Source of the DNA: Catenulispora sp. EB89
GTDB taxonomy: Bacteria; Actinomycetota; Actinomycetes; Streptomycetales; Catenulisporaceae
NCBI RefSeq assembly: GCF_041261445.1
Contig: NZ_JBGCCU010000013.1
Coordinates: 186,001-250,000, forward strand
DNA length: 64,000 nucleotides
Reading direction: 5' to 3'
Positions within the stretch are counted from its first letter, which is position 1. Every line of letters begins with the position of its first letter. The translations under genes were made by a program, and so were the position numbers. Below the pieces are notes generated by a model, which ran no database searches, was not told the DNA's origin, and saw only the letters and a program-made list of their open reading frames with translations. Positions 4,171 to 15,407 of this stretch are shown here, in pieces.

Positions 4171-4515
4171 GTGTACCGCCAAGGAGACGTGCTCATCGTG
4201 CCGGTCACGGAGAACGCCGTACCGGAGGACGTCCGCACCGCCGGACCGAAGCACCGCCGCCCGCGCGAGTCGATGGTCCTGGCGCTCGGGGAGAGCACCG
4301 GCCACGCGCACGCGCTGGTCGCCACCCGCGACGAGGGCGATTTCTACCCGGCCCCCAGCGAGAGCGAGCCGGCCTTCGTGTTCCTGCCGCTCGGCGGCAA
4401 GGTCGTGCACGAGGAGCACGGCACCATCCCGCTGCCCGAGGGCTGGTTCAAGGTGGTGCGCCAGCGGGAGTACGAGCCGCGCGCCCTGCGCTCGTTCCGG
4501 GTGGTGGCGGACTGA
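4171..4515 (+). CDS. Small conserved hypothetical protein paired with a DUF6745-like protein
   Basis: A 114-residue protein starting at GTG 4171 with a strong GGAGAAGGAGG ribosome site; an upstream in-frame ATG at 4018 was rejected because it would cover the promoter region with unconvincing coding sequence. It begins VYRQGDVLIVPV and contains LALGESTGHAHAL and a FLPLGGKVVHEEHGTI segment, a pattern suggesting a small beta-rich (cupin-like) fold with His residues. No enzyme function is recognised. Its stop overlaps the next gene's ATG by one base (TGATG), so the two proteins are almost certainly translationally coupled. Confidence 0.75.
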   Translation: MYRQGDVLIVPVTENAVPEDVRTAGPKHRRPRESMVLALGESTGHAHALVATRDEGDFYPAPSESEPAFVFLPLGGKVVHEEHGTIPLPEGWFKVVRQREYEPRALRSFRVVAD

Positions 4516-5591
4516 TGCAGAGCCCTGCGACCACCGAGGCCCCGCGGCCCGACCTGACCGCCGACGCGATCGTCGCGGTCGCCGCCGCCACGCACGAGAC
4601 CTGGCGCGCGATCGCCCTGTCCACCGAGAGCGTGGACCGAGAGGTCGCCGAGCAGACCGTTCGCAAGCTCTACGTCGACGCGCGGCCCGACGCCGCGCCG
4701 CCGGAGATCATCTGGTGCCGCTCGCCGCTGGAGGCCGCGCGGCTGGTCGTCGAGCAGGCCGACCGCCTCGGCGCCCCGGCGCGCGACCGGGTCAGGGACC
4801 TGATCTGGGCGCGGGGCCGGGCGCAGCTCGCCGAACGCCTCGGCCCGCGCGAGTTCGGCCGGGTCTGGCAGGCCGCCTGCGGCGAGCTCGCCCCGCTGAT
4901 GAGCACCCTGATCACGCGCATCGCCGCCGGCGTCGAGGAGCACGTCGACGCCGAGAACACGGCGGAGCGCGCGGCCCTGCGCGTCGCCCTGACCCACGCG
5001 GTCCACGGCCCGTTCGACGCCGCCTGGCTCCCGCTCTACGAGGCCGCGGGCATGGCCGAGGACCTGGGCCGGATGGCCCGCTCGGCGGGCTGGTGGTGGC
5101 CGTTCGAGAACGCCGTCGTCCTCACCGAGCGCCCCCTGGCCCTGCGCCTGGACGACCAGGACCGCCTGCACCACGGCGACGGCCCGGCGCTGGCCTACTC
5201 CGACGGCTTCGCCCTGCACTCCTGGCGCGGCACCCCGCTGACCCCGGAGTTCGGGCAGCGCCTGGCCGCCACCACGCCGGAGTCGATCCGCGCGGAGGAG
5301 AACGCCGAGCTGCGCCGGATGATGGTCGAGCACTACACGCCCGAGCGCTTCCTGAAGGAGTCCGGCGCGACGCCGCTGCAGGAGGACGAAGCCGGCAAGC
5401 TCTGGCGCGTCGAGATGGGCTCCGACGAGGCCATCGTCATGGTCGAAGTGGTGAACTCCTCGCCGGAGCCGGACGGCACCTTCAACGTCTACTTCCTGCG
5501 TGTGCCGCCGGACACCCGTACCGCCAAGGCCGGCGTCGCCTGGACCTTCGGCCTCACCGAGGACGAGTACCAACCGCTCCGACAAACGTGA
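4515..5591 (+). CDS. DUF6745-like conserved hypothetical protein
   Basis: A 358-residue protein whose C-terminal half carries the pattern I associate with DUF6745: a WWPFENAVVLTERP motif, LHHGDGPALAYSDGFALHSW, then GKLWRVEMG and VEVVNSSPEPDGT, ending with a YFLRVPPDTRTAKAGVAWTF-type segment. The N-terminal half is alpha-helical and rich in Ala/Arg/Glu. No catalytic motif is evident. It is coupled to the upstream 114-residue protein. Its 3' end overlaps the convergent radical SAM gene (5554-6480) by 38 bp. Function is unknown; the family name is from memory. Confidence 0.78.
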   Translation: MQSPATTEAPRPDLTADAIVAVAAATHETWRAIALSTESVDREVAEQTVRKLYVDARPDAAPPEIIWCRSPLEAARLVVEQADRLGAPARDRVRDLIWARGRAQLAERLGPREFGRVWQAACGELAPLMSTLITRIAAGVEEHVDAENTAERAALRVALTHAVHGPFDAAWLPLYEAAGMAEDLGRMARSAGWWWPFENAVVLTERPLALRLDDQDRLHHGDGPALAYSDGFALHSWRGTPLTPEFGQRLAATTPESIRAEENAELRRMMVEHYTPERFLKESGATPLQEDEAGKLWRVEMGSDEAIVMVEVVNSSPEPDGTFNVYFLRVPPDTRTAKAGVAWTFGLTEDEYQPLRQT

Positions 5592-6480
5592 CCGACGAGA
5601 CACCGACACCGGCACCGGCACCGGCACCGGCGGGGATCCGGGACAGGACCCCGCCGGCGAACGTGTTGTAAAGACCGAGTTCCGGCATGTGCACATAGCC
5701 GATGTGGCAGTCGCACTGTGTCAGGGGACAGAGTCGCGGACCCAGAGCCTTGCGATACGAGTCGTCGTACAGGTTCCCGAGCCGCTCCGTGGGATCGGTC
5801 CGCGACACGAAGTGGCAGCGGTAGACCTCGCCGTCGCCGTTGACGGAGATGACCGACTCCCCCGCGCGGCACGCGTGCCCTTGCGAGGGATGCGGGAAGC
5901 GGGAGACGGGGAACAACGGGTCTATCTCGGCCCAGGGCTCGGCCTCATCATCGGTGTAGGTGTGGCCTTCGGCCGCGTTGACCCACAGATACACGTCCTC
6001 CGGCAGGTCAGCGCGCAGACGCCGAGCCGCCGCCAAGTGCTCCGGCAGACCGACGATCCCCACGCTGAACCGCACGCCGCCGGCCCGCAGCTCACGGCAG
6101 CGCGCGAGGAACCGCTCGTACGGGACCTGGTCCGGGTGGTACGTGCACCACAGCGCCAGCGACTCCGGATCGGCGTCGGCGGTCCACTCCGTCCGCGAGC
6201 TCAGATTGGTCTGGATCGCCACTTCGCCGACGTGCCCGAGACGGCTGAGCTCGACCAGGGCGTGCCGGTACCAGCTCCGCGTCAGCCCTTCGCCCCACGG
6301 CGTGAACAGGACGTTGATTCTGTCCTCGGTCTGCGCACCCGCCCACGCCACGAACCGCTCCAACGCCGCGCGGTCGGCGCGCAGCGTCTCCGGCGAATCG
6401 CGGCGCTTGGCGAAGGGGCAGTAGCCGCAGTCGTAGTCGCAGCTGGCCAGCGGGCCGCGATAGAGAATCGACAGTTCCAT
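5554..6480 (-). CDS. STM4011 family radical SAM protein
   Basis: Last gene of the eight-gene operon; 308 residues. The SAM-cluster motif is visible as C14-DYD-C18-GY-C21. The C-terminal part has further cysteines (HACRAGESVISVNGDGEVYRCHF, then LCPLTQCDCHIGYVHM), resembling an auxiliary-cluster SPASM/twitch-like region, as in enzymes that modify peptides or proteins. The tail after about residue 283 is Ala/Gly/Val low complexity made by a microsatellite and is probably not part of the fold. It starts 7 bp downstream of the STM4012-type gene. The family is named after a Salmonella Typhimurium locus; its reaction is not known to me. Modification of the co-encoded LRR proteins is an inference. 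Confidence 0.87.
   Translation of the reverse strand: MELSILYRGPLASCDYDCGYCPFAKRRDSPETLRADRAALERFVAWAGAQTEDRINVLFTPWGEGLTRSWYRHALVELSRLGHVGEVAIQTNLSSRTEWTADADPESLALWCTYHPDQVPYERFLARCRELRAGGVRFSVGIVGLPEHLAAARRLRADLPEDVYLWVNAAEGHTYTDDEAEPWAEIDPLFPVSRFPHPSQGHACRAGESVISVNGDGEVYRCHFVSRTDPTERLGNLYDDSYRKALGPRLCPLTQCDCHIGYVHMPELGLYNTFAGGVLSRIPAGAGAGAGVGVSSVTFVGAVGTRPR
5601..5630. repeat. CACCGG hexanucleotide microsatellite
   Basis: About five tandem copies of a CACCG(A/G) hexamer just past the DUF6745-like stop. On the minus strand it lies within the 3' end of the radical SAM gene and encodes an Ala-Gly-rich (AGAGAGAGVG) tail. It is divisible by three, so length changes would only lengthen or shorten the tail. 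Confidence 0.85.
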
Positions 6481-6487
6481 CAGGGCC

Positions 6488-7789
6488 CTACTTCAGCTCA
6501 TAGGCGCGCATCGCCTCGCGCACCGGCTCGGAGAAGAACATCGGCCCGACGGAATCCGACCAGGCCAGGCCCTCGGCGCTGAGCCGCAGCCGACCGTCCG
6601 CCGCGGGCTCCAGGAAGCCGCGGGCAATCAGCAGCTCCAGCTCCGCGCCGAAATGCTCGTCCGCGTCGCCGCACGCCATGCCGTCGGCTTGGAGCAGTGA
6701 CTGGATCAGGAACCTGCGAGCCCGCTCCTCCTCGTCGAGCCGGTAACCGACCTGCGCGCGGCTGAAGTCGGCGGCGGCGACGTACTCGTCGATGATCCCG
6801 CGCACCTCTGACGCCGACACCGCGTAGTCGAACGAGTAGTGCAGCGAACCGGTGTACGACCGGGCGCCACAGCCCAGCCCGATCATCCCGTCCGTCTGGC
6901 ACGCGTAGTCCTCGCCGCCTTCGACGACCGGCGCGTCCAGGCGGCGGAACATCCGCATGGACACCTGCTCATAACCGCTCTCCAGCAGGAGGTCACGGCC
7001 ACAGCGATAGAGATCCAACCGCTGCGCGTCCCACGTCGCGTCCGCACCCGCGTTCATCCGACCGAGGCCTGTCAGTGGCCTGACGTAGAGCGGGTAGAGG
7101 TAGATCTCCTCCGGCGTCCAGCGCAGCGCCGTCTGAAGCGAAGCCCGCCAGGATTCGCGCGTCTGGCCGTCGATGCCGTAGATCAGGTCGATGTTCAGGA
7201 CCGGGATGTCCGCGGCTCGGACGGCGTCCAGGGCGGCGAAGACGTCGGCCGCCTTCTGCGGACGCACCGCCGAGCGGGCCTCGACGTCGTCGAAGCTCTG
7301 CACGCCGAGGCTGAGCCGCGTGGTCCCGCGCTCGGCGAGCACCGTCAGCCGGTCCGGGGTGGCGGTGGACGGCGAGGCCTCGACCGACAGCGGAACGGCC
7401 CCGAGGCCGACTCCCATCACCTTCTCGGCGATATCGAACAGCCGCGAGAGCTCGTCAGGGTTCAGATACGTCGGAGTGCCGCCGCCGATCGCCGCGTTGG
7501 CGAAGCGGGGCGCGGGACCGGATTCGTCCAGCGCCGCGCGGACCGCGATCGCCTGGCGTTCCAGGGCGTCCAGGTACGCCGTGGTCAGCGTTTCGGGCGC
7601 GCCGGTCCGGGTGAACAGGTTGCAGAAACCGCAGCGGACTTCGCAGAACGGGACGTGCGTATAAAAGGACAACGCGTCGCGCGCCTCGTCCCGCCAGACG
7701 TCGGACAGCAGCGGCCTCGGCGCGAGCGGCCGATACGCGGTCTTGTGCGGATAGGCGTACACGTACGACTCGTAGGGACGGTCCAGCAT
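6488..7789 (-). CDS. STM4012 family radical SAM protein (HemN-like)
   Basis: A 433-residue HemN-related radical SAM enzyme. The cluster motif is C49-EVR-C53-GF-C56, within SFYTHVPFCEVRCGFC; GGGTPTYL at 102-109 is the SAM-binding glycine motif, followed by SVEASPSTATPDRL and RLSLGVQSFDD, all HemN-like. A GLGCGARSY segment corresponds to the HemN GLGxGAxS motif. A winged-helix-like C-terminus follows. Despite the similarity it is not a dedicated haem enzyme by context: its ATG overlaps the stop of the STM4013-type gene (TGATG) inside the LRR operon. Substrate unknown. Confidence 0.9.
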   Translation of the reverse strand: MLDRPYESYVYAYPHKTAYRPLAPRPLLSDVWRDEARDALSFYTHVPFCEVRCGFCNLFTRTGAPETLTTAYLDALERQAIAVRAALDESGPAPRFANAAIGGGTPTYLNPDELSRLFDIAEKVMGVGLGAVPLSVEASPSTATPDRLTVLAERGTTRLSLGVQSFDDVEARSAVRPQKAADVFAALDAVRAADIPVLNIDLIYGIDGQTRESWRASLQTALRWTPEEIYLYPLYVRPLTGLGRMNAGADATWDAQRLDLYRCGRDLLLESGYEQVSMRMFRRLDAPVVEGGEDYACQTDGMIGLGCGARSYTGSLHYSFDYAVSASEVRGIIDEYVAAADFSRAQVGYRLDEEERARRFLIQSLLQADGMACGDADEHFGAELELLIARGFLEPAADGRLRLSAEGLAWSDSVGPMFFSEPVREAMRAYELK

Positions 7790-8610
7790 CAGCCCACATA
7801 TCCCTTCGGCAGCACGAAATCGGCGTAGGGCACGGTCCAGACGACGTCGTGGCCGATGCGGTGCCCGACGTGGCCGTCCTCGCCGTAGGCGGTGCCGTGG
7901 TCGGAGCAGACGATGGTGAAGCAGGGGCGGCGTGCTGCCATCAGGGTGAACAGCCGGCCGATCCGCGTGTCTATGTAACGCAAAGCCGCTGCGTGCGAAG
8001 CTCGGGTGTCGCCGGATTCCCTGGTCGCTCCGTCGAGGTAGAACCAGTTCGGCTGGTGCAGCGCCGGGACGTTCACGAACAGGAACAGCGGCTGGTCGTC
8101 CGGCTGCGCCGCGACCACCCGCGCCGCGACCTCGACCTGGTTCCCGAACGAGTCCGGATCGGTCACGCCGGTCGCCGCCGACCAGTGCGCCTCGTCGAAG
8201 TAGCCCGGCAGCACCTGCCCGAGCCGGCTCTCCGGGTTGAAGAAGCCCACTCCGCCGACGCAGACCGTGCGGTACCCGGCCTTGCGCAGCCCGGCCACCA
8301 GATCCGGCTCGTCGAAGACCCAGGTGTCCGAAGCCGTGGTCTCGCTGCCGCCGAAGCGCGCGGCGAACAGGCGCGGATGGCGGCCCGGCGCTTCGGGCGT
8401 CGGGAGGAAGCCGGCGAAGAACGCGGAGTGCGCGGCGAAGGTGAACGAGCCCGGCGTGTGCCGTCGCTCCCAGCCTTGCGGGAGCACGCGCGCCAGGTTC
8501 GGCAGCCGGCCGGCGGCGAGTTCTTCGGCGGCGACGTCGTGGCGCAGGGTGTCGAGGGTGACGAACAGGAGGTCGTGGGTTCCGACGACGGCGTTCATGT
8601 TCAGGGTCAT
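7789..8610 (-). CDS. STM4013/SEN3800 family hydrolase (alkaline-phosphatase/sulfatase fold)
   Basis: A 273-residue protein of the alkaline phosphatase superfamily. Near the N-terminus LLFVTLDTLRHD supplies the first metal Asp (D20) and a Thr in the nucleophile position. HTPGSFTFAAHSAFFAGFLP follows, and near the C-terminus CSDHGTAYGEDGHVGHRIGH supplies the Asp/His metal ligands. It is short compared with classic sulfatases. It overlaps the ATP-grasp gene upstream (ATGA, 8607-8610) and the HemN-like gene downstream. It probably hydrolyses a phospho- or sulfo-ester, perhaps trimming a product of the operon; this is inference. Confidence 0.88.
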   Translation of the reverse strand: MTLNMNAVVGTHDLLFVTLDTLRHDVAAEELAAGRLPNLARVLPQGWERRHTPGSFTFAAHSAFFAGFLPTPEAPGRHPRLFAARFGGSETTASDTWVFDEPDLVAGLRKAGYRTVCVGGVGFFNPESRLGQVLPGYFDEAHWSAATGVTDPDSFGNQVEVAARVVAAQPDDQPLFLFVNVPALHQPNWFYLDGATRESGDTRASHAAALRYIDTRIGRLFTLMAARRPCFTIVCSDHGTAYGEDGHVGHRIGHDVVWTVPYADFVLPKGYVG

Positions 8611-9761
8611 AGCGTTGTGCGGCCTATCAGTGAACGTACTTGGGCGCCGTACGTGCCGACGCCTTCCCCGGAGGTGCCCGGAAGTCCCATGAGGTTCGGC
8701 AGCAGGTCGCCGTAGGCGTTGACCTCGCCGATGAAGTCGAGCCCGTCGGCGCCCGGGAGCACGTCGATCCCGAGGCAGTGCACGCCGGGGAAGCAGGCCG
8801 CCGCCGACTCCGCGAGGTCGAGGATCGCCGGCCAGCGCTTCTCCCCGACCAGGGCCTGGAACGCCGCCAGGTCGCCGCGCCGGCCGCCGAGGTGCAGGTT
8901 GGTCATCGGGGAGGCGCTGGTGCGGACGACCGCGTGCGTGGCCCGGCCGCCGACGGTGACGACGCGCAGGTCACAGTCCCAGCCGCCGATGCTCACCTTG
9001 CGGACCCAGCGCTCGGCGTGCAGGCCGTCGGGGGCCAGGGCGGCGAGGACGTCGTCGATGTCCGCGTCCCGAAGGTAGGTGCGGACCTTCAGCGAGTTGT
9101 AGAGCTCGACACCGGTGGCGGTGCGCACCAGCTCGGCCGAGGTCACGGAGCGGCGCCTCGGACCGCGCACGGTCAGCGCCACGACGCCGGATGCCGAGGA
9201 ACCGTGCCGGATCTTGATGAACGCCGACTCCGAACCGTCGGTCGCGGCGGCGGGTGGTACGGCGACGCCGGCGTCGGCCAGGAGGGTGTGTGTGGCCTGC
9301 TTGTCGAAGGCTGTCGCGACGCCCTGCGCGGTGAAGAGTCGCGCGGCGCCGGCGTCGTCGATACTGTGCTCCAGCTTCGCCAGGGCTGTAGTAAAACCCT
9401 GATACCACTCACGCGTGCCCTCGGCGCGGTACATGTCGACCGGTTGGTCAGAGCCGCGCAGCAACCGGGTCACCTCGGCGTCCTCGCCCGGGGAGTCGAC
9501 GCGGACCAGCTCGCCGGGGCGGAAGGAGGCTTCGCCGCGCAGCACGTCGAGCCACGGCACGATGCGCGGCTCGGGCAAGCCCTCCGCGCGAACGGCTTCC
9601 GTGAAGAGCGTCACGCGGCGGTTGTCCGGATTGCCGACGACCGCGAAGCGCAACGGGAGCGCCGGGCTGTGCGGGCCGGCCACGCCGCCGGAGCCGCGCG
9701 AACCGTGCGAGACCGTCGGCGAACCCGACCCAAGCCTCGAACCCAGCCCCGACCCCGTCAT
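8607..9761 (-). CDS. STM4014 family protein (ATP-grasp-like)
   Basis: A 384-residue protein. The start ATG (9759-9761) overlaps the stop of LRR gene 1 as ATGA, which fixes it although an open frame extends further upstream. Residues 1-36 are Gly/Ser-rich and probably disordered; the conserved part begins RFAVVGNPDNRRV. Later features fit an ATP-grasp ligase: FIKIRHGSSASGV (ATP-binding Lys and Gly/Ser loop), ERWVRKVSIGGWDCDLRVV, and FIGEVNAYGDLLPN near the end with the E-x-N magnesium ligands. ATP-grasp enzymes join a carboxylate to an amine or thiol through an acyl-phosphate, so a peptide- or amino-acid-ligation step is plausible. The substrate is unknown. Confidence 0.86.
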   Translation of the reverse strand: MTGSGLGSRLGSGSPTVSHGSRGSGGVAGPHSPALPLRFAVVGNPDNRRVTLFTEAVRAEGLPEPRIVPWLDVLRGEASFRPGELVRVDSPGEDAEVTRLLRGSDQPVDMYRAEGTREWYQGFTTALAKLEHSIDDAGAARLFTAQGVATAFDKQATHTLLADAGVAVPPAAATDGSESAFIKIRHGSSASGVVALTVRGPRRRSVTSAELVRTATGVELYNSLKVRTYLRDADIDDVLAALAPDGLHAERWVRKVSIGGWDCDLRVVTVGGRATHAVVRTSASPMTNLHLGGRRGDLAAFQALVGEKRWPAILDLAESAAACFPGVHCLGIDVLPGADGLDFIGEVNAYGDLLPNLMGLPGTSGEGVGTYGAQVRSLIGRTTL

Positions 9762-10729
9762 TCCGCCACCGCGATATACCGATCGCGCCGGCCCGACCCC
9801 TGCGCGTCCGACAGGTCGACCTCCACCCCCGGCCACGCCCGCCCCACCCGCGTCCGCATCCCCGGCGAGATGTAGTGGTGGCTGAGGTCCAGCCGCCGCA
9901 GGTGCCCCAGCGGCTGTCCGGCGAGCAGCGCCGCCGCGCCCGCGTCGCCAAGCGTGCCGAGCGACAGATCCAGCGACTCCAGCTGCGCCACGACCGGCGC
10001 CCGCGCCACCGCGGCGGCGATGTCGTCCTGGATCAGCGCGTTCCGCAGACCCAGGTGCCGCAGGCGGGGGAAGCGGCCAGCTTCGAGCAGTGGGGCGAGG
10101 TCGTCGAGGGTCGCGTCGCCGCCGTAGAGCGGGTCGCCGAGGTAAATCTCCAGGTGCGTCAGCTCGGGGAGGTCGCATTCGGCCAGGGCGCGGATCGTGC
10201 TCCCGGGTAGACCGCCGGACTGGAGCACCAGAGTGCGCAGGCCCGAGTGCTTCAGCGGCGCGATCAGCGGATCGGGGCCTTCGGCCCGCGCCCGGCCCTC
10301 CGGCGTCCCGCGGACCCAGAGTTCGGCCAGGTTCGGGTACGCCTCCAGCACCGGGCCGAGGTCCGGCACGTAGATCCACGAGGGCTGGCTCTGCTCGTCG
10401 ACCAGGTCGTTGACGAAGAGCGCCCGCAGCCCCGGCAGCCGGCCGGCGACCGCGACCAGGTCGTCGGCGACCGTGCAGTCGTCCTCGCCCCACTCCAGCC
10501 ACTGGCCGGTGACCAGCGCCTCGACCCCGGTGCTCGGCACCCGGTCCAGGAACGCCGCGAGCAGTTCGGGGAAGTCCCGGTCGAAGTACTCGCCGTCCTT
10601 GTTGCAGTCCAGGCGCCAGGCCACGCCGCCGGGATCGGCGGCCGCGGCCGGCGTCGGCAGCGCGGGGTCGGCGGGGAAGTCGACGACCGGCCGGCCGGCG
10701 AACTCGGTCAGGTGGTGGTAGAAGGCCAT
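9758..10729 (-). CDS. STM4015 family leucine-rich-repeat protein (paralogue 1)
   Basis: A 323-residue LRR protein, one of four tandem paralogues. Start taken as ATG 10727-10729 (MAFYHHLTEFAGRPVVDF); a GTG six bases upstream is in frame and overlaps the previous stop. Shared features in order: an N-terminal GxPVVDF motif, an AWRLD segment, YVPDLGPVLEAYPNLAELWV, LRTLVLQSGGLPG, LTHLEIYLGDPLYGGDATL, LRHLGLRNALIQDDIAAAVA, LDLSLGTLGDAGAAALLAGQ, then LDLSHHYIS and GVEVDLSD, ending RYIAVAE. Repeats of 22-30 residues with LxxLxL spacing suggest a curved recognition surface. No signal peptide. Likely a partner or substrate of the downstream enzymes (inference). Confidence 0.88.
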   Translation of the reverse strand: MAFYHHLTEFAGRPVVDFPADPALPTPAAAADPGGVAWRLDCNKDGEYFDRDFPELLAAFLDRVPSTGVEALVTGQWLEWGEDDCTVADDLVAVAGRLPGLRALFVNDLVDEQSQPSWIYVPDLGPVLEAYPNLAELWVRGTPEGRARAEGPDPLIAPLKHSGLRTLVLQSGGLPGSTIRALAECDLPELTHLEIYLGDPLYGGDATLDDLAPLLEAGRFPRLRHLGLRNALIQDDIAAAVARAPVVAQLESLDLSLGTLGDAGAAALLAGQPLGHLRRLDLSHHYISPGMRTRVGRAWPGVEVDLSDAQGSGRRDRYIAVAE

Positions 10730-10731
10730 GA

Positions 10732-11709
10732 TCACTCCGCCACCGCTATGTAGCGGTGTCCTGTGTGGTCGGTCAGGGCATCGGAAAGGTCGACGTCGAC
10801 CCCCGGCCACGCGGTCCGCAGCCGGTCTTGCATCGCCTCGGAGACGAAATGGTGGTGCAGGTCCAGCTTCTCGAGGTGCCCCAGCGGCTGACCGGCGAGC
10901 AGCGCCGCCGCGCCCTCGTCGCCCAACATGCCCAGGGACAGGTCCAGCGTCTTCAGCCGGGAGACGATCGGCGCGTGAGCCACCTCGGCCGCGATCGCGT
11001 CCTGGAACACCGAGTCCCGAAGGCCCAGATGCGTCAGATTCGGGAAGCGCCCGCCGCCGAGCAGCCATTCGACGTCCGCGGGAGTCGCGTCGCCGCCGTA
11101 GTTGGGCTCCCCGAAGTAGAACTCCAGGTGCTGCAACGCCGGGAAATCGCACTCGCCGACCGCACGCATCGCCGCCACCGGCAGGCCACCGGACTCGAAG
11201 ACCAACCGGCGCAGAGAGCTGTGACTCAGCGGCTCGAAATGCGGCGCGAAGTCCCCGTGCGGCCGGCCCCGCACCCACAACTCCTCCAGCGCCGGATACG
11301 CGCGCAGGATCGGGGTGAGGTCGCGGTGATCGATGTACGCGGTGTCCGAACCGCCGTCGCCGCCTTCGAAGATGTCGCCGAGGAACAGCGAGCGCAGCGC
11401 CGGGAGCCGTCCGGCGCTCGCCGCCAGGATCTCGGCCACCGGGTAGTAGGCCTCCGCGTCGAGGTATTCGGCCCACATCCCGATGGTCAGCGCCGTCACC
11501 TTGGACGTGTCGGCCCGGGCCAGGAACCGCTCCCAGATCTCCTCGAAGGCGAACCAGTCCGAGTCCCAGTCCCCGAACTCGTCGTCGTAGTAGCAGTCGA
11601 TCCGCCACGCCGACTTCGCCTCGTCCTGCGGCGCCGGCGCGTCCGGATGCGGTGCGAACGCAACGACCGGCAGCCCGCCGAACTCGTCCAGATACTCTAC
11701 GAACGACAT
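10732..11709 (-). CDS. STM4015 family leucine-rich-repeat protein (paralogue 2)
   Basis: A 325-residue paralogue starting at ATG 11707-11709 (MSFVEYLDEFGGLPVVAF); an in-frame GTG six bases upstream overlaps the preceding stop exactly as at the next junction. The central part is the most acidic and aromatic of the four (CYYDDEFGDWDSDWFAFEEI). LRR motifs include LRSLFLGDIF, LEELWVRG, LRRLVFESGGLP, LQHLEFYFGEPNYGGDATP, LTHLGLRDSVFQDAIAAEVA and LDLSLGMLGDEGAAALLAGQ, then LDLHHHFVS, GVDVDLSD and the terminal RYIAVAE. The gap to paralogue 1 is two bases. The differing central face compared with conserved ends suggests diversification of what each copy binds. Confidence 0.88.
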   Translation of the reverse strand: MSFVEYLDEFGGLPVVAFAPHPDAPAPQDEAKSAWRIDCYYDDEFGDWDSDWFAFEEIWERFLARADTSKVTALTIGMWAEYLDAEAYYPVAEILAASAGRLPALRSLFLGDIFEGGDGGSDTAYIDHRDLTPILRAYPALEELWVRGRPHGDFAPHFEPLSHSSLRRLVFESGGLPVAAMRAVGECDFPALQHLEFYFGEPNYGGDATPADVEWLLGGGRFPNLTHLGLRDSVFQDAIAAEVAHAPIVSRLKTLDLSLGMLGDEGAAALLAGQPLGHLEKLDLHHHFVSEAMQDRLRTAWPGVDVDLSDALTDHTGHRYIAVAE

Positions 11710-11711
11710 GC

Positions 11712-12611
11712 TCACGCTCCGATTCCCACGTACCTGCGGCCCGATTCGTCGACCGTCCGGCACCCGGACAGGTCGACGTCCACTCCCGGCCACGCCGCGC
11801 GCAGCCGATCTTGCACCGGCTCGGAGACGTAGTGGTGGTGCAGGTCCAGCACGCTGAGGTGCCCCAGCGGCCGACCGTTCAGCAACGCCACCGCGCCGTC
11901 GTCTCCGAGCGCGCCCAACGACAGGTCCAGCACCCGCAGCCCGGCCACCACCGGGGCGTGCGCGACGGCCGCCGCGATCTCGTCCTGGATCAGCGCGTTG
12001 CGCAGACCCAGATGGTCCAGTTTCGGGAAAGCCTCTCCGGCCAGGAGCCAGGCGAGGTCTTCCGGCTTCGTCCAGCCGCACCAGTCGGGGTGTCCCAGGT
12101 ACAGCTCCAGGTGCCGCAGCTCCGGGAAGTCGCAGGCGCTGATCGCCCGGATCACGTCGGGATGGAGCCCGCCGGACTGGAGTACCAGCCGACGCAGGCT
12201 GGTGTGCCGCAGCGGCTCGAAGTACCGGGACGGCTTCTGCGCCAGGTCCGGCGTCCCGCGGACCCAGAGCTCTGCCAGCTGCGGGAACGCTTGCAGGACC
12301 GACGTGAGGTCGCCGTGCTCGATGTACACGATGTCTTCGGCGATGTCCTTGGCGTCGTCGCCGGCGATGCCGCCGAAGAACACCTTGCGCAGCGCCGGGA
12401 ACCGGTCCGCCGCGGCGACGAGTGACCGGGCCGGGTGGTGGTCGTCGGCGAACGCGTCCTCGAAGGCTTCGTCACACCAGCGGCCGAAGACCAGCTCTGT
12501 CACCTGTGTCGTGTCGACTGTGTCGAGGAAGCGCCCGAAGGCCTCCTCGAACTCGAGCGGCGGCGCGCCGTCATCGTCGCCGCGGCGCTCGATCCGCCAA
12601 GCGGATCCCAC
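11712..12611 (-). CDS. STM4015 family leucine-rich-repeat protein (paralogue 3, N-terminally short)
   Basis: A 299-residue paralogue beginning at GTG 12609-12611 as V/M-GSAWRIERR. This aligns to the AWRI segment that lies about 30-40 residues inside the other copies, so the N-terminal GLPVVxF block is missing. Only six bases separate its start from the stop of paralogue 4, so there is no room for the missing part. The remaining LRR body is complete: LRKVFFGGI, LAELWVRGTP, LRRLVLQSGGLHP, LRHLELYLGHPDW, LDHLGLRNALIQDEIAAAVA, LDLSLGALGDDG, LDLHHHYVS, GVDVDLSG. The terminal motif is altered (RYVGIGA instead of RYIAVAE). It may have lost one function while keeping the repeat surface. Confidence 0.85.
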   Translation of the reverse strand: MGSAWRIERRGDDDGAPPLEFEEAFGRFLDTVDTTQVTELVFGRWCDEAFEDAFADDHHPARSLVAAADRFPALRKVFFGGIAGDDAKDIAEDIVYIEHGDLTSVLQAFPQLAELWVRGTPDLAQKPSRYFEPLRHTSLRRLVLQSGGLHPDVIRAISACDFPELRHLELYLGHPDWCGWTKPEDLAWLLAGEAFPKLDHLGLRNALIQDEIAAAVAHAPVVAGLRVLDLSLGALGDDGAVALLNGRPLGHLSVLDLHHHYVSEPVQDRLRAAWPGVDVDLSGCRTVDESGRRYVGIGA

Positions 12612-12617
12612 GTCCGG

Positions 12618-13601
12618 CTACTCGGCCACGGAGACGAACCGGTGCTCCACCTCGTCGTCCCAGTCGTCCGGTTCCTGCGGATCCGACAGGTCCACCTCCA
12701 CCCCGGGCAGCGCCTCGCGCAACCGCTCCTGCATCGGCTCGGAGATGAAGTGGTGGTGCAGGTCCAGCTTCTTCAGGTGGGTCAGCGGCTGCCCAGCCAG
12801 CAGCGCGGCCGCGCCCTCGTCGCCGAGGGCGCCCAGCGAGAGGTCCAGGACCTCCAGGCGGGCCACGATCGGGGCGTGCGCGACAGCAGCGGCGATCTCG
12901 TCGGCGTTCTCGGCGTTCCGCAGGCCGAGGTAGCGGAGCTCGGGAAAGCCGGTACCGGCCAGAAGGTCGTCGAGGTCGTGGGCCTCGGAGCCGCCGAAGT
13001 AGTTCTCGGTGCCGAGGTACAGCTCCAGGTCGGTCAGCCGCGGGAACTCCGAGCTGGCGACCGCGCGCACCACCTCAGGCGGCAGGCCGCCGCTCTGGAA
13101 CGTCAGCTCCCTGAGTTCCGGGTAGGCACGCCGCTCCCACCCCAGGTTCTCGCTGCCCCGGACGCCGAACGTCGCCAGGTTCGGGAAGGCACGCAGCAGC
13201 GGCGTCAGGTCGGCCTGGTGGATCCAGGAGATCTCCCACTGCCAGGACTCGATGTCCCCGACGAACAGGTGCCGCAGGTTCGCAAACCGGTCGGCGGCGG
13301 CGATCAGCGGCGCGAACGCGTCAGCCGAGGTGAGCTCCATCTCGTCGCTGGTGACCCAGCTGCCGATGACGAACGCGCTGATCCCGGCGGTGTCGACGCC
13401 GCGCAGGAACGCGTCGAAGAGCTCGGTGTAGGCGATGCTGTCGAACCCGGCGACCGCGACACGCCACGCCGACGCCGCGGGCTCGGCCGGGATCTCAACC
13501 TCGCCCGGCCAGTCGGCCATCTCCTCGAAGCCCTCGCCGGGCACGGTCCGGACGGGCAGCCCGCCCCACCGCACCAGCGCGGCGCACTCGCTGTCGATCA
13601 C
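12618..13601 (-). CDS. STM4015 family leucine-rich-repeat protein (paralogue 4, first in operon)
   Basis: A 327-residue paralogue, first of the LRR genes in transcription order. GTG start at 13599-13601 overlaps the stop of an upstream short frame as GTGA. It begins MIDSECAALVRWGGLPVRTV, then ASAWRVAVAG and repeats such as LRHLFVGDI, LRELTFQSGGLPP, LTDLELYLGTENYFGG, LRYLGLRNAENADEIAAAVA, LDLSLGALGDEGAAALLAGQ, LDLHHHFIS and GVEVDLSD, with an acidic stretch (DDWDDEVE) before the terminal RFVSVAE. The most divergent copy at its N-terminus. As first gene it is nearest the unidentified operon promoter. Confidence 0.88.
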   Translation of the reverse strand: MIDSECAALVRWGGLPVRTVPGEGFEEMADWPGEVEIPAEPAASAWRVAVAGFDSIAYTELFDAFLRGVDTAGISAFVIGSWVTSDEMELTSADAFAPLIAAADRFANLRHLFVGDIESWQWEISWIHQADLTPLLRAFPNLATFGVRGSENLGWERRAYPELRELTFQSGGLPPEVVRAVASSEFPRLTDLELYLGTENYFGGSEAHDLDDLLAGTGFPELRYLGLRNAENADEIAAAVAHAPIVARLEVLDLSLGALGDEGAAALLAGQPLTHLKKLDLHHHFISEPMQERLREALPGVEVDLSDPQEPDDWDDEVEHRFVSVAE

Positions 13602-13916: not shown

Positions 13917-15407
13917 ATGGGTGGTGAGTACTGGCGTGCCGAGCCCGACGGTCCCGCGCGCGAGCGCGTCGTGAGCCTCGACGTCCCGGGTCGCGAGCAG
14001 CCGATACCGCTGGTCAGCGCGGAGGGCGTGTTCGGCGCGCAGCGCGTCGACCGGGGCACGAGCGTCCTGATCCGCAACGCGCCGATCCCCGCGCCGTGCA
14101 CCGGGGTCGTCGACCTGGGGTGCGGGTACGGCCCGATCGCCGTGTCGATGGGGATGCGCCAGCCCGACGCCGGGTTGTGGGCGGTGGACGTCAACCGGCG
14201 CGCGCTGGCCCTGACCGCGCGCAACGCCGCGTCGGCCGGCGCGCACAACGTCGTCGTCGCCGAGCCCGAGGCCGTGCCCGCCGCGCTCCGCTTCGACCGC
14301 ATCTACTCGCACCCGCCGATCAAGATCGGCCGCTCGTCGATGCACGAGCTCCTCGACGGCTGGCTGCGGCGCCTGTCCCACGGCGGCGACGCCTACCTCG
14401 TCATCAAGCAGTCGATGGGCGCCGACGCCCTGCACTCGTGGCTCAACGACACCGGCTTCCCGGCCCGGCGTGCCGCGTCGAAGCAGGGATACCGGTTGCT
14501 GCACGTATCAGAGAACGACGCCATGCGGCAGCAGCCGGCGGGACTGACCTCTGACGACCTCCGCACGGTCAACCGCGCCACCGGCCGCGCCTGGAACGTG
14601 CTCGGCCGCCTCGTCGGCGGGCGCTCCGACAGCGTCCAGCTTCTCGGTTCCGGCGACGACCGTGCCGTGGTGAAGATCAAGCACGGCACGTGGTGGGGTC
14701 CGCAGCTCGCCGCGTTGGAATCCACAGTCGCCGCGCTGCGCGCCGCCGGTTATCCGACGCCGCCGGTCCTCGCCCATGGCGCGCTGGACGAGGAACGCCA
14801 CTTCCTTGTGACCGGCTTCGAGGTCGGCTCCGATGCTGCTGGCCCGGACGCCGACGTCCTAGCCCAGGCGGTAGCGGCCATCGAGCTGCACGCCGACGTT
14901 CGGCCCCGCCCCGAACGGGACTGGTCGGCGATGATCACTCTGTTCCTCAACGGGGGAATCACAGAGCACGAATTCCATCCGAGCCTGTCCGGCCTCGCCG
15001 CCCAAGCCCTCGCGCTCGTGCCGCATCCGGTCCCGGCGCTGCCCAGCACGGAGTTCGTCCACGGCGACTTCACCATCGCCAACCTGCTCAGCCGGAACGG
15101 CGCGCTGTCGGCCGTCGTCGATCTGGAGGGGTTCGGCCGGGGTACCCGCACCATCGACCTGACGAGCCTGCTCGCGTCGGTGATCGGCACGGCGCCCGCG
15201 GCGGCGGTCGAAAGCCTGGCCCGTGCTGCGATCGCGGCGTCTGATGTGGCGACGTTCCGGACCTGCGTGGCACATCGTGTACTGGCGAGTCTGCTGGCCG
15301 TGGGCGTCGAAGGTGACGGCGGCGACGGTAGTGACGGCGGCGGCGTTGCGGCGCGTATCGCAGAGGTCTCAGAACGGGCTCGGCTTCTTCTCGCAGTCGC
15401 GGACTGA
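13917..15407 (+). CDS. Fusion: RsmC-like methyltransferase plus APH-fold phosphotransferase domain
   Basis: A 496-residue two-domain protein. Residues 1-200 are an RsmC/MTS-type Rossmann methyltransferase: VFGAQRVDRGTSVL, SAM motif DLGCGYG at 66-72, acidic loop AVDVNRRAL near 90. The catalytic NPP motif of this family reads SHPPIKIG at 131-138, with His for Asn. Residues about 215-496 form an aminoglycoside-phosphotransferase-fold domain: VVKIKHG (Lys 253), the catalytic loop HGDFTIAN at 382-389 and a metal-binding VDLEGFG at 401. A Gly/Asp stretch lies near the end. RsmC-type proteins normally end at about 200 residues in actinobacteria, so this is an unusual fusion. Whether it acts on rRNA is uncertain given the changed motif. 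Confidence 0.85.
   Translation: MGGEYWRAEPDGPARERVVSLDVPGREQPIPLVSAEGVFGAQRVDRGTSVLIRNAPIPAPCTGVVDLGCGYGPIAVSMGMRQPDAGLWAVDVNRRALALTARNAASAGAHNVVVAEPEAVPAALRFDRIYSHPPIKIGRSSMHELLDGWLRRLSHGGDAYLVIKQSMGADALHSWLNDTGFPARRAASKQGYRLLHVSENDAMRQQPAGLTSDDLRTVNRATGRAWNVLGRLVGGRSDSVQLLGSGDDRAVVKIKHGTWWGPQLAALESTVAALRAAGYPTPPVLAHGALDEERHFLVTGFEVGSDAAGPDADVLAQAVAAIELHADVRPRPERDWSAMITLFLNGGITEHEFHPSLSGLAAQALALVPHPVPALPSTEFVHGDFTIANLLSRNGALSAVVDLEGFGRGTRTIDLTSLLASVIGTAPAAAVESLARAAIAASDVATFRTCVAHRVLASLLAVGVEGDGGDGSDGGGVAARIAEVSERARLLLAVAD

Follow-up and report, generated by a model that had tools for sequence, protein, structure and literature searches.

The stretch of DNA considered here (the window) is 64,000 nucleotides long and comes from Catenulispora sp. 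EB89 (contig NZ_JBGCCU010000013.1, positions 186,001 to 250,000). At positions 5554-13601, on the minus strand, it holds an operon of eight genes coding for four leucine-rich repeat (LRR) proteins and four enzymes that belong to families named after the Salmonella loci STM4011 to STM4015. The LRR proteins, all of the STM4015 family, come first: LRR1 (12618-13601, with a GTG start), LRR2 (11712-12611), LRR3 (10732-11709) and LRR4 (9758-10729). They are followed by a RimK/LysX/ArgX-like ATP-grasp ligase of the STM4014 family (8607-9761), an alkaline-phosphatase-superfamily hydrolase of the STM4013 family (7789-8610), a HemN-like radical S-adenosylmethionine (SAM) enzyme of the STM4012 family (6488-7789) and a second radical SAM enzyme, with SPASM-like C-terminal cysteines, of the STM4011 family (5554-6480). 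From LRR1 downwards, the genes are separated by gaps of 6, 2 and 2 base pairs (bp), then overlap by 4, 4 and 1 bp, and a last gap of 7 bp precedes STM4011; the ATG start of STM4014 overlaps the stop of LRR4 (9761).

A preliminary description of this DNA had reported eight tightly packed minus-strand genes here, and the coordinates, gaps and overlaps agree with it. The families it had named hold as well since all eight proteins exceed the curated NCBIfam cut-offs. LRR1 to LRR4 score 343, 291, 301 and 309 bits against NF038076 (cut-off 275), with LRR2 covering profile positions 2-270 of 290. The ligase reaches 344 bits against NF038074 (cut-off 175), the hydrolase 413 against NF038075 (250), the HemN-like enzyme 595 against NF006067 (380) and the SPASM radical SAM enzyme 396 against NF038073 (200). 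This makes four STM4015 proteins and one each of STM4014, STM4013, STM4012 and STM4011. The order of LRR, ATP-grasp, hydrolase, HemN-like and SPASM radical SAM genes on a single strand matches the known STM4011-STM4015 set, and the Salmonella gene set that had been named as a counterpart was found in a Salmonella locus (L051). The preliminary description did not include the conserved LRR tail, the linked pair of DUF6745 and small-protein genes or the aberrant LRR2, which are described below.

The LRR proteins share a C-terminal tail with a glutamate as the last residue, and this tail is new here, going by the proteins compared. Its consensus is R-[YF]-[VI]-A-V-[GSA]-Glu-stop, behind a linker of variable length that is often acidic. 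In the window, LRR1 ends in HRFVSVAE (tail RFVSVAE, 12621-12641), LRR3 in HRYIAVAE (tail RYIAVAE, 10735-10755) and LRR4 in DRYIAVAE (tail RYIAVAE, 9761-9781), all on the minus strand. Thus three of the four LRR proteins have the R-[YF]-x-x-x-x-Glu ending, and these three tails are the proposed modification sites. LRR2 lacks the ending; its tail, RYVGIGA (11715-11735, minus strand), has alanine in place of the terminal glutamate.

The tail was followed through a set of 90 loci, the window included, which was ranked by likeness to a Deinococcus query and is not random. A scan of genome contigs with that query gave at least 590 stretches, at least 536 of them encoding a relative, and the best 80 of these at least 536 were kept; a tblastn search of plasmid records with STM4011 found 13, from which seven regions were used. 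Several related loci are metagenome bins. We take the loci to come from Actinomycetota, Chloroflexota, Acidobacteriota, Myxococcota, Cyanobacteriota, Planctomycetota, Armatimonadota, Pseudomonadota, Bacteroidota, Deinococcota, Verrucomicrobiota and Lentisphaerota, with Bacillota represented through Paenibacillus. One locus, labelled Comamonas sp. KCTC 72670 (L087), groups with the Myxococcus loci by gene content, and its name may be wrong.

When the LRR open reading frames (ORFs) of the window and the 89 other loci were counted (at least 100 amino acids, stop seen), 94 of 97, from about a dozen phyla, ended in glutamate, compared to 303 of 6,327 ORFs overall. The full R[YF]xxxxE-stop pattern occurs in 71 ORFs, 70 of which are LRR. 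The three exceptions to the glutamate are LRR2 of the window, with its alanine, the first LRR of L064, which runs four residues beyond AVSE, and an ORF of L091, where the last part of the gene lies in another frame that ends RYTVAAE and is itself counted among the 94. An earlier and narrower count (LRR ORFs above 150 bits, stop seen) gave 88 of 91. Among 91 tails, position -7 is Arg in 75, -6 is Tyr in 63 and Phe in 18, -3 is Val in 70, and -2 is Gly in 37, Ser in 27 and Ala in 20. The terminal glutamate is the most fixed part of the tail, with a weighted frequency of 0.98 that ranks its column 11th in the 91-sequence alignment. Closer to home, 73 of 78 distinct LRR ORFs from loci of the order and genus end in glutamate; the other five are four of the LRR2 type (the window twice, by way of a cut copy, and genomes G011 and G023) and one from L187.

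Is this tail a general property of LRR proteins? This was ruled out with 40 hand-picked stretches holding further LRR genes of the same genomes. STM4015-like LRR ORFs away from the cluster (at least 150 bits) end in R[YF]xxxxE in 12 of 15 cases, the exceptions being L229, L236 and the front half of a broken gene in L240, and the weaker LRR ORFs have the tail in 1 of 34 (L258) and a terminal glutamate in 4 of 34. Glutamate is the last residue, too, in weak LRR matches from Gemmata (L066), Singulisphaera (L097) and a myxobacterium (L102), with the tails QGDYE, GDWE, GDIE, RYVATME and RYVAVME. As for the enzymes, the C-termini of STM4011, STM4013 and STM4014 have no fixed residue, and that of STM4012 is Arg in 47 of 85.

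Nor does the glutamate come from chance or from the coupling of stop and start codons. The genes make use of either glutamate codon and of each of the three stop codons, and a 4-nucleotide overlap is absent from 56 of the 94 genes with a terminal glutamate; together with the ORF counts, this rules out both origins. The rows compared are related by descent and hence are not independent events, so the case for a constraint on the protein is made by the spread over phyla and by third codon positions that are free to vary.

The ATP-grasp ligase encoded directly behind the LRR genes is nearest, by profile and by fold, to enzymes of the RimK/LysX/ArgX type, with other ATP-grasp folds following at a small distance. 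Compared with the PDB, a profile built from 57 STM4014 proteins brought up LysX (1uc8, 1uc9, 3vpd; 4e-7) and RimK (5zct, 4iwx; 6e-6) first. An AlphaFold2 model of the ligase (predicted local distance difference test, pLDDT, of 92.5) found LysX/ArgX with LysW (5k2m, 3vpb) and RimK with RpsF (5zk6) in the top rows of Foldseek. In VIA-align, 3vpb led with Z 23.1 (root-mean-square deviation 2.7, 258 aligned), ahead of RimK 7qyr (22.3) and LysX 3vpd (22.2); next came glutathione synthetase and the inositol-pyrophosphate kinase PPIP5K2 (20.6 each) and D-cycloserine synthetase (19.9). In Pseudomonas RimK, N262 and R189 contact the glutamate and K141, S212 and N213 are among the reported contacts of ADP (PMC10092738). 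The RimK segments D-I-R189, S-N213-L-H and E-V-N262-A, with numbering assigned by hand, align with D-L-R266, T-N288-L-H and E-V-N348-A of STM4014, and R266, N288 and N348 are invariant in all 57 rows.

The order of the genes ties this ligase to the LRR proteins. With adjacency taken as a gap of less than 200 bp and LRR matches admitted down to 35 bits, STM4014 is directly preceded by an LRR gene in 69 of the 70 loci that have both. STM4013 and STM4012 are adjacent in 72 of 77 loci and STM4012 and STM4011 in 82 of 83, compared to 44 of 68 for STM4014 and STM4013. The gene order is thus one of two blocks, the first made up of the LRR and ATP-grasp genes and the second of the genes for the hydrolase, the HemN-like enzyme and the SPASM radical SAM enzyme. 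A break at this place, which sets the LRR/ligase pair apart from the three remaining enzymes, would be expected of a ligase whose target is the LRR protein.

The operon can be read as a protein-maturation system whose substrates would be the LRR proteins themselves. The LRR body would present a short C-terminal tail ending in glutamate, STM4014 would couple an amine to the terminal glutamate of each LRR protein, and the enzymes of the second block (STM4012, STM4011 and STM4013) would either make the amine beforehand or remodel the group once it is on the protein. The best-supported step is the pairing of the LRR tail, as substrate, with STM4014, as enzyme. A conserved C-terminal glutamate next to an ATP-grasp enzyme nearest to ligases of protein C-termini points to the tail as the site, and it is very probable that the operon enzymes act on or recognize it. 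That STM4014 ligates something to the terminal glutamate appears likely from its sequence and modelled fold. The reading as a whole, in which the enzymes attach and finish a group on the terminal glutamate of the LRR proteins, is one that we consider probable, somewhat less firmly than either of these parts; the ligation itself, the carboxylate used, the amine and the role of the radical enzymes are what we infer in it. The preliminary description had the radical SAM and ATP-grasp enzymes acting on, or guided by, the LRR proteins, the hydrolase finishing the product and, as one option, a natural product as the outcome. The first idea comes out strengthened and can be made specific to the tail, with its terminal glutamate and with STM4014 nearest to C-terminus ligases; the other two would be conjectures, and that earlier interpretation is partly supported.

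Several observations weigh against this proposal. The profile E-values of STM4014 are modest and combine two stretches, neither of them strong by itself (0.04 and 0.17 for LysX). The rows at Z 20.6 are 2.5 below the best and 1.5-1.7 below RimK and LysX, and PsnB, a graspetide ligase, is close in Foldseek (from rank 11, 2.3e-11). With so small a margin in Z and PsnB so close, the fold alone does not fix the reaction of STM4014. The planctomycete LRR proteins of L066 and L097 end in glutamate behind a different tail (GDYE, GDWE, GDIE). Two STM4015-like proteins have no tail, one in L187, from order genome G116 (313 bits; 337 against NF038076), and one in L229 (210 bits), and the alanine end of LRR2 occurs in three species. 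The tail of LRR3 has a pLDDT of 88 in its AlphaFold2 model, so it is not disordered and may lie packed against the LRR of the same chain. Conservation of a C-terminal residue could also reflect binding instead of ligation, and two proteins encoded beside the operon in some loci have conserved ends with no ligase assigned to them. In these, the small His-rich protein has a terminal Asp in 27 of 27 and the DUF6745 protein a terminal Thr in 25 of 27 (a count that takes in a spurious 26-bit match in L098), an unexplained parallel to the LRR tail.

Three of these loci can be described further. The tail-less gene of L187 lies at 1774-2838 and ends SVGPLTY, and the genome has three other STM4015 copies, all tailed. 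In the planctomycetes, the LRR of L097 is a WGR-LRR protein, and the neighbouring STM4014 proteins of L066 and L097 are low-scoring (236 and 229 bits), hinting at a co-change of tail and ligase in these sequences.

The conserved ends of the small protein and of DUF6745 could instead mean that the LRR tail is a mere handle for the enzymes or for a partner, while the enzymes make a small molecule or modify another protein. LRR folds are generally binding scaffolds, and AlphaFold2 places the tail with fair confidence, as would suit such a handle. What this explanation leaves unaccounted for is the neighbour of the LRR gene in 69 of 70 loci, a ligase-like protein of the C-terminal-glutamate type, and the fact that the last residue is the most fixed of the tail. 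We regard it as unlikely.

Beyond the ligase, the three enzymes of the second block all have invariant residues. The PDB sequences nearest to STM4013 are nucleotide pyrophosphatase/phosphodiesterases (3e-8). Among 77 sequences, Thr57, Asp214, Asp237, His238 and His250 are invariant and Asp20 has a frequency of 0.97; we take these residues to be the metal-site residues of the alkaline-phosphatase superfamily, and their conservation suggests that the metal site is intact. STM4012 matches HemN (1olt; 7e-53, over 13-413) and then the radical SAM methyltransferase NocN (9p2u; 1e-33), and its CX3CX2C motif is invariant in 80 sequences. The SPASM part of STM4011 resembles SkfB (6efn; 2e-4), and cysteines 16, 20, 23, 206, 224, 253, 258 and 260, in the numbering of the aligned fragment, are invariant in 88 sequences.

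The likeness of STM4011 to SkfB, a peptide maturase, and the HemN-like STM4012 with a methyltransferase as its second PDB match bring up another possibility. The radical SAM and ATP-grasp enzymes could act on side chains of the tail (Tyr/Phe, Val or Arg) to form cross-links or a macrocycle, and the tail could then be cut off as a peptide, much as in ribosomally synthesized and post-translationally modified peptides (RiPPs). The aromatic residue that most tails have at position -6 (63 Tyr and 18 Phe among 91) would suit this, as would a 39-residue ORF ending SRYYALYE between the LRR and ATP-grasp genes of L106. Against it, 10 of the 91 tails have Ser, Asn or Leu at position -6 and the other positions vary as well, so that no side chain equals the terminal glutamate in constancy. 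The substrates would also be about 300 residues long compared to the short precursors of RiPPs, and no peptidase, RiPP recognition element (RRE) or exporter was recognized. More precisely, the ten window proteins gave no Pfam match to an RRE, exporter or leader peptidase, with RRE models not searched specifically. Of 26,053 short ORFs (20-99 amino acids) in the 90 loci, searched for this ending alone, 8 end in R[YF]xxxxE and none of these is in the window; two of the eight are fragments of LRR genes and one is that of L106. The latter (5934-6053 of its locus, from Microseira wollei) could be what is left of a second LRR gene or else a tail peptide in its own right. Altogether, a peptide cut from the tail seems decidedly unlikely, more so than a tail used as a handle.

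A further enzyme joins the set in some phyla. In 15 of 90 loci, the gene for a HAD phosphatase lies a short way ahead of STM4013, and another HAD type abuts STM4011 in Salmonella, is near it in Deinococcus and is fused to it in Bacteroides. With such a phosphatase among the enzymes, a phosphorylated intermediate becomes plausible. In the Bacteroides locus (L055), the fusion of the STM4011 C-terminus to a HAD hydrolase domain lies at 7965-9530, and the STM4015 protein carries an N-terminal WGR domain. STM4014 and STM4011 are 365 bp apart there, and around this interval STM4013 and STM4012 have no more than short partial matches (72 and 28 bits), so that from the sequence they look truncated or lost.

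The HAD and STM4013 hydrolases would also fit a small-molecule route, in which the LRR protein is an amino-group carrier protein (AmCP) like LysW and a small molecule is built on its terminal glutamate and then released as a metabolite or natural product. Complexes of LysX/ArgX with LysW are among the structures nearest to STM4014. In AmCPs such as LysW, loading takes place at the gamma-carboxylate of the C-terminal glutamate and recognition works through negative charges (PMC9303977), and the LRR tail often stands behind an acidic linker. What speaks against a carrier is the LRR body itself, about 250 residues that are well conserved beyond the apparent need of a carrier, and the LRR paralogues remote from the enzymes, which retain the tail. 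A weak point against it comes from the shared ORFs listed near the cluster, among which the HAD phosphatase is the single clear addition and a peptidase, kinase, reductase or exporter was not noticed; the clustering behind this consists mostly of frame-shadow ORFs, and the inspection covered families that are not confined to Myxococcus. A carrier is a doubtful explanation overall, one to be ranked above the handle. It has the ligation step in common with the proposal that the LRR proteins are matured on their tails, and the chances given here to the alternatives are not exclusive.

If a group is ligated to the glutamate, would it stay there? Retention is slightly favoured, and release is nearly as plausible; the lean comes from a limited look at the neighbourhood, in which no peptidase was recognized. 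A retained group could be a permanent prosthetic group on the terminal glutamate of the LRR proteins, in effect an encoded cofactor made by the ATP-grasp and two radical SAM enzymes, common to several LRR proteins within a cell and to about a dozen phyla. This is a tentative idea, possible and less than probable. We know of no protein-bound group of such kind on an LRR scaffold, and to our knowledge the LRR class is not known to carry groups of such kind. None was found in the literature searched, and neither was functional work on the STM4011-STM4015 set, in a limited search with most subscription papers beyond reach. In the Salmonella literature searched, STM4013 and STM4015 appear solely as table rows in two papers. 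The main texts of two surveys of ATP-grasp enzymes, one of clusters (PMC8939145) and one of divergent proteins (PMC4431377), contain neither "leucine-rich" nor "LRR".

The number of LRR genes per enzyme set is another aspect of the system. All five families are found in 67 of the loci, and each enzyme is single-copy in 67 of 67, with the LRR gene present once in 52, twice in 12, three times in 1 and four times in 2. The variation in LRR number around single enzymes had been predicted, and it is largely as predicted, the exception being an extra STM4013 above the cut-off elsewhere in the genome in two of 119 genomes (G008 and G109). With LRR counts of 1-4 and single enzymes, several LRR proteins are served by one enzyme set, which suggests that the attached group would be common to them and that the LRR body differs.

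The 119 genomes were drawn from the order in a survey that did not count STM4012. Those above the cut-off number 51 for STM4011, 51 for STM4015, 50 for STM4014 and 50 for STM4013. STM4011 and STM4015 occur together in 50 genomes and each without the other in 1, and 67 have neither of them; such co-occurrence means that the set is not due to chance. Genome G005, a draft in 680 contigs, is the sole one of the 119 to exceed the STM4015 cut-off with STM4011 and STM4014 both below theirs, for which a break between contigs may account. STM4014 has weak matches at E <= 0.001 in 114 of the 119, as expected of the large ATP-grasp superfamily. STM4011 is single in each of its 51 genomes, two overlapping partial matches in G071 being one place. 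STM4015 matches, partial ones included, number 1 in 23 genomes, 2 in 20, 3 in 2, 4 in 3, 5 in 2 and 6 in one, the source genome of the window. In a draw across the phylum, STM4015 is less frequent, with 6 of 246 genomes having it and all but one of the 6 within the order. A whole-genome search of 45 genomes hand-chosen from the 80 found a match to the STM4015 family in all 45, above the cut-off in 31; the best matches in the genomes of L066 and L097 reach merely 62 and 51 bits. No copy was found in E. coli by blastn with STM4012 of the window or by megablast with that of Salmonella, a weak negative if the copy is distant.

LRR copies that vary from 1 to 6 per genome would also be seen if the LRR family served anti-phage or self/non-self recognition, with the enzymes supplying an effector. 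PADLOC 2.0.0, run on ten proteins of the window, gave as its sole match the HemN-like protein at 25.7 bits to one model, and thus no support for a defence system. The LRR lineages are moreover common to several species of the genus, which speaks against such a role. It is highly improbable.

These lineages were seen in a tree built from 31 LRR proteins of the genus and 2 from other members of the order, 33 in all. The three other LRR proteins of the window have 51, 50 and 48% identity to LRR1. In the tree, LRR1 to LRR4 and the two further STM4015 copies of the source genome, on contigs C26 and C32, each fall into a supported lineage of their own that is represented in other species of the genus as well. 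The lineages are thus older than the species compared, as judged from these sequences, and the expansion is old within the genus and not a recent local duplication. The gene on C26 is a lone STM4015 gene away from the enzymes (L138, 7078-8028) with the full tail RYVAVAE. The gene on C32 adjoins a diverged STM4014-like gene (L139, 7924-9866 for the two), and the same pair occurs in genus loci L178-L181 and L184, with no radical SAM genes in the stretches taken. This ATP-grasp-like gene of C32 was considered as a true second STM4014 and rejected as a degenerate or diverged copy, given its 44.9 bits and, by eye, the seeming lack of several catalytic-type residues.

LRR2 is the odd one among the four. 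It lacks an N-terminal segment, its first residue aligning near residue 42 of LRR1 and residue 31 of LRR3, which makes its N-terminus shorter by about 41 and about 30 residues, respectively. Its last residue is alanine where LRR1, LRR3 and LRR4 have glutamate. The LRR2 clade (support 100/100) holds the window and genomes G023, G011 and G017, which are four species of the genus; three members have the alanine tail and the G017 member ends RRSIAVAE. With such a clade, recent decay of a single gene is not favoured, and on this tree the alanine may have arisen once or several times. LRR2 could be a partner that is not a substrate, or a decoy. Either way, with its change from glutamate to alanine at the end, it offers a natural negative control within the operon.

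Two genes on the plus strand are linked to the operon. The DUF6745 protein (4515-5591; PF20530, 299 bits) is encoded convergently to STM4011, and the 3' ends of the two genes overlap by 38 bp (5554-5591); a like convergent overlap, of 14 bp, is present in Deinococcus (L053). Before it comes a small His-rich protein at about 4171-4515, with a start inferred from homologues (4018 in the ORF list). The small protein has no PDB or Pfam match, and an alignment of 27 homologues shows the motifs RxGD, GExTGHxH, HxEH and QREYxP and the terminal Asp. With the window counted, DUF6745 is found in 26 of 90 loci, the small protein in 27 and both in 26. DUF6745 is above the cut-off in 47 of the 119 genomes of the order, with a few matches away from the cluster. 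By eye, the N-terminal half of the Deinococcus and Methylobacterium DUF6745 proteins is LRR-like. Just upstream of the operon, on the opposite strand, a single ORF (13917-15407) codes for a methyltransferase domain (PF05175) and a phosphotransferase domain (PF01636).

What does this mean for a widespread gene set that has been known only by Salmonella locus numbers? It now has a concrete hypothesis, in which the substrate would be the LRR protein, the site its last residue and the first enzyme STM4014. If true, C-terminal glutamate ligation and radical SAM maturation would be joined on LRR proteins.

Compared with known systems, the operon is closest to its own namesakes. The gene set is already known by name in NCBIfam, where three of the five families are labelled 'hypoth_equivalog', and the same five families stand in the same order in Salmonella, Paenibacillus, Deinococcus, Methylobacterium and Streptomyces (L051-L054 and L056). 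The window differs from these in having four tandem LRR genes compared to the usual one and an LRR that lacks both its N-terminus and the terminal glutamate. For the LRR protein itself, there is a solved structure, PDB 2ra8 (Q64V53_BACFR, from Bacteroides fragilis), a structural genomics entry named uncharacterized. It is the best fold match of the LRR3 model (pLDDT 90.9; E 9e-20), with a profile match of 4e-78. Its chain is longer (362 residues), is matched from residue 53 and aligns up to the residue preceding the glutamate position.

Among systems of known chemistry, RiPP clusters with radical SAM and ATP-grasp enzymes (graspetides and the products of SPASM maturases) resemble the operon in combining a SPASM radical SAM enzyme with an ATP-grasp enzyme, and they differ from it in that no short precursor, exporter or peptidase is recognized here; Foldseek ranks LysX and RimK above the graspetide ligase PsnB for STM4014, by a small margin. 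The LysW systems share with the operon an ATP-grasp enzyme of the LysX/ArgX kind and a partner that ends in a conserved glutamate, often after acidic residues. The candidate carrier here is an LRR protein of about 300 residues instead of the small LysW, and it is accompanied by a metal hydrolase and a pair of radical SAM enzymes. LysZ-, LysY-, LysJ- or LysK-like genes were not noticed among the shared ORF families listed near the cluster, for which no models of them were searched. The glutamylation of RpsF by RimK is a case of an ATP-grasp family acting on a protein C-terminus, and the counterparts of its R189, N213 and N262 are invariant in STM4014. Here, the target would be an LRR protein encoded beside the ligase, with two radical SAM enzymes and a hydrolase linked to the pair.

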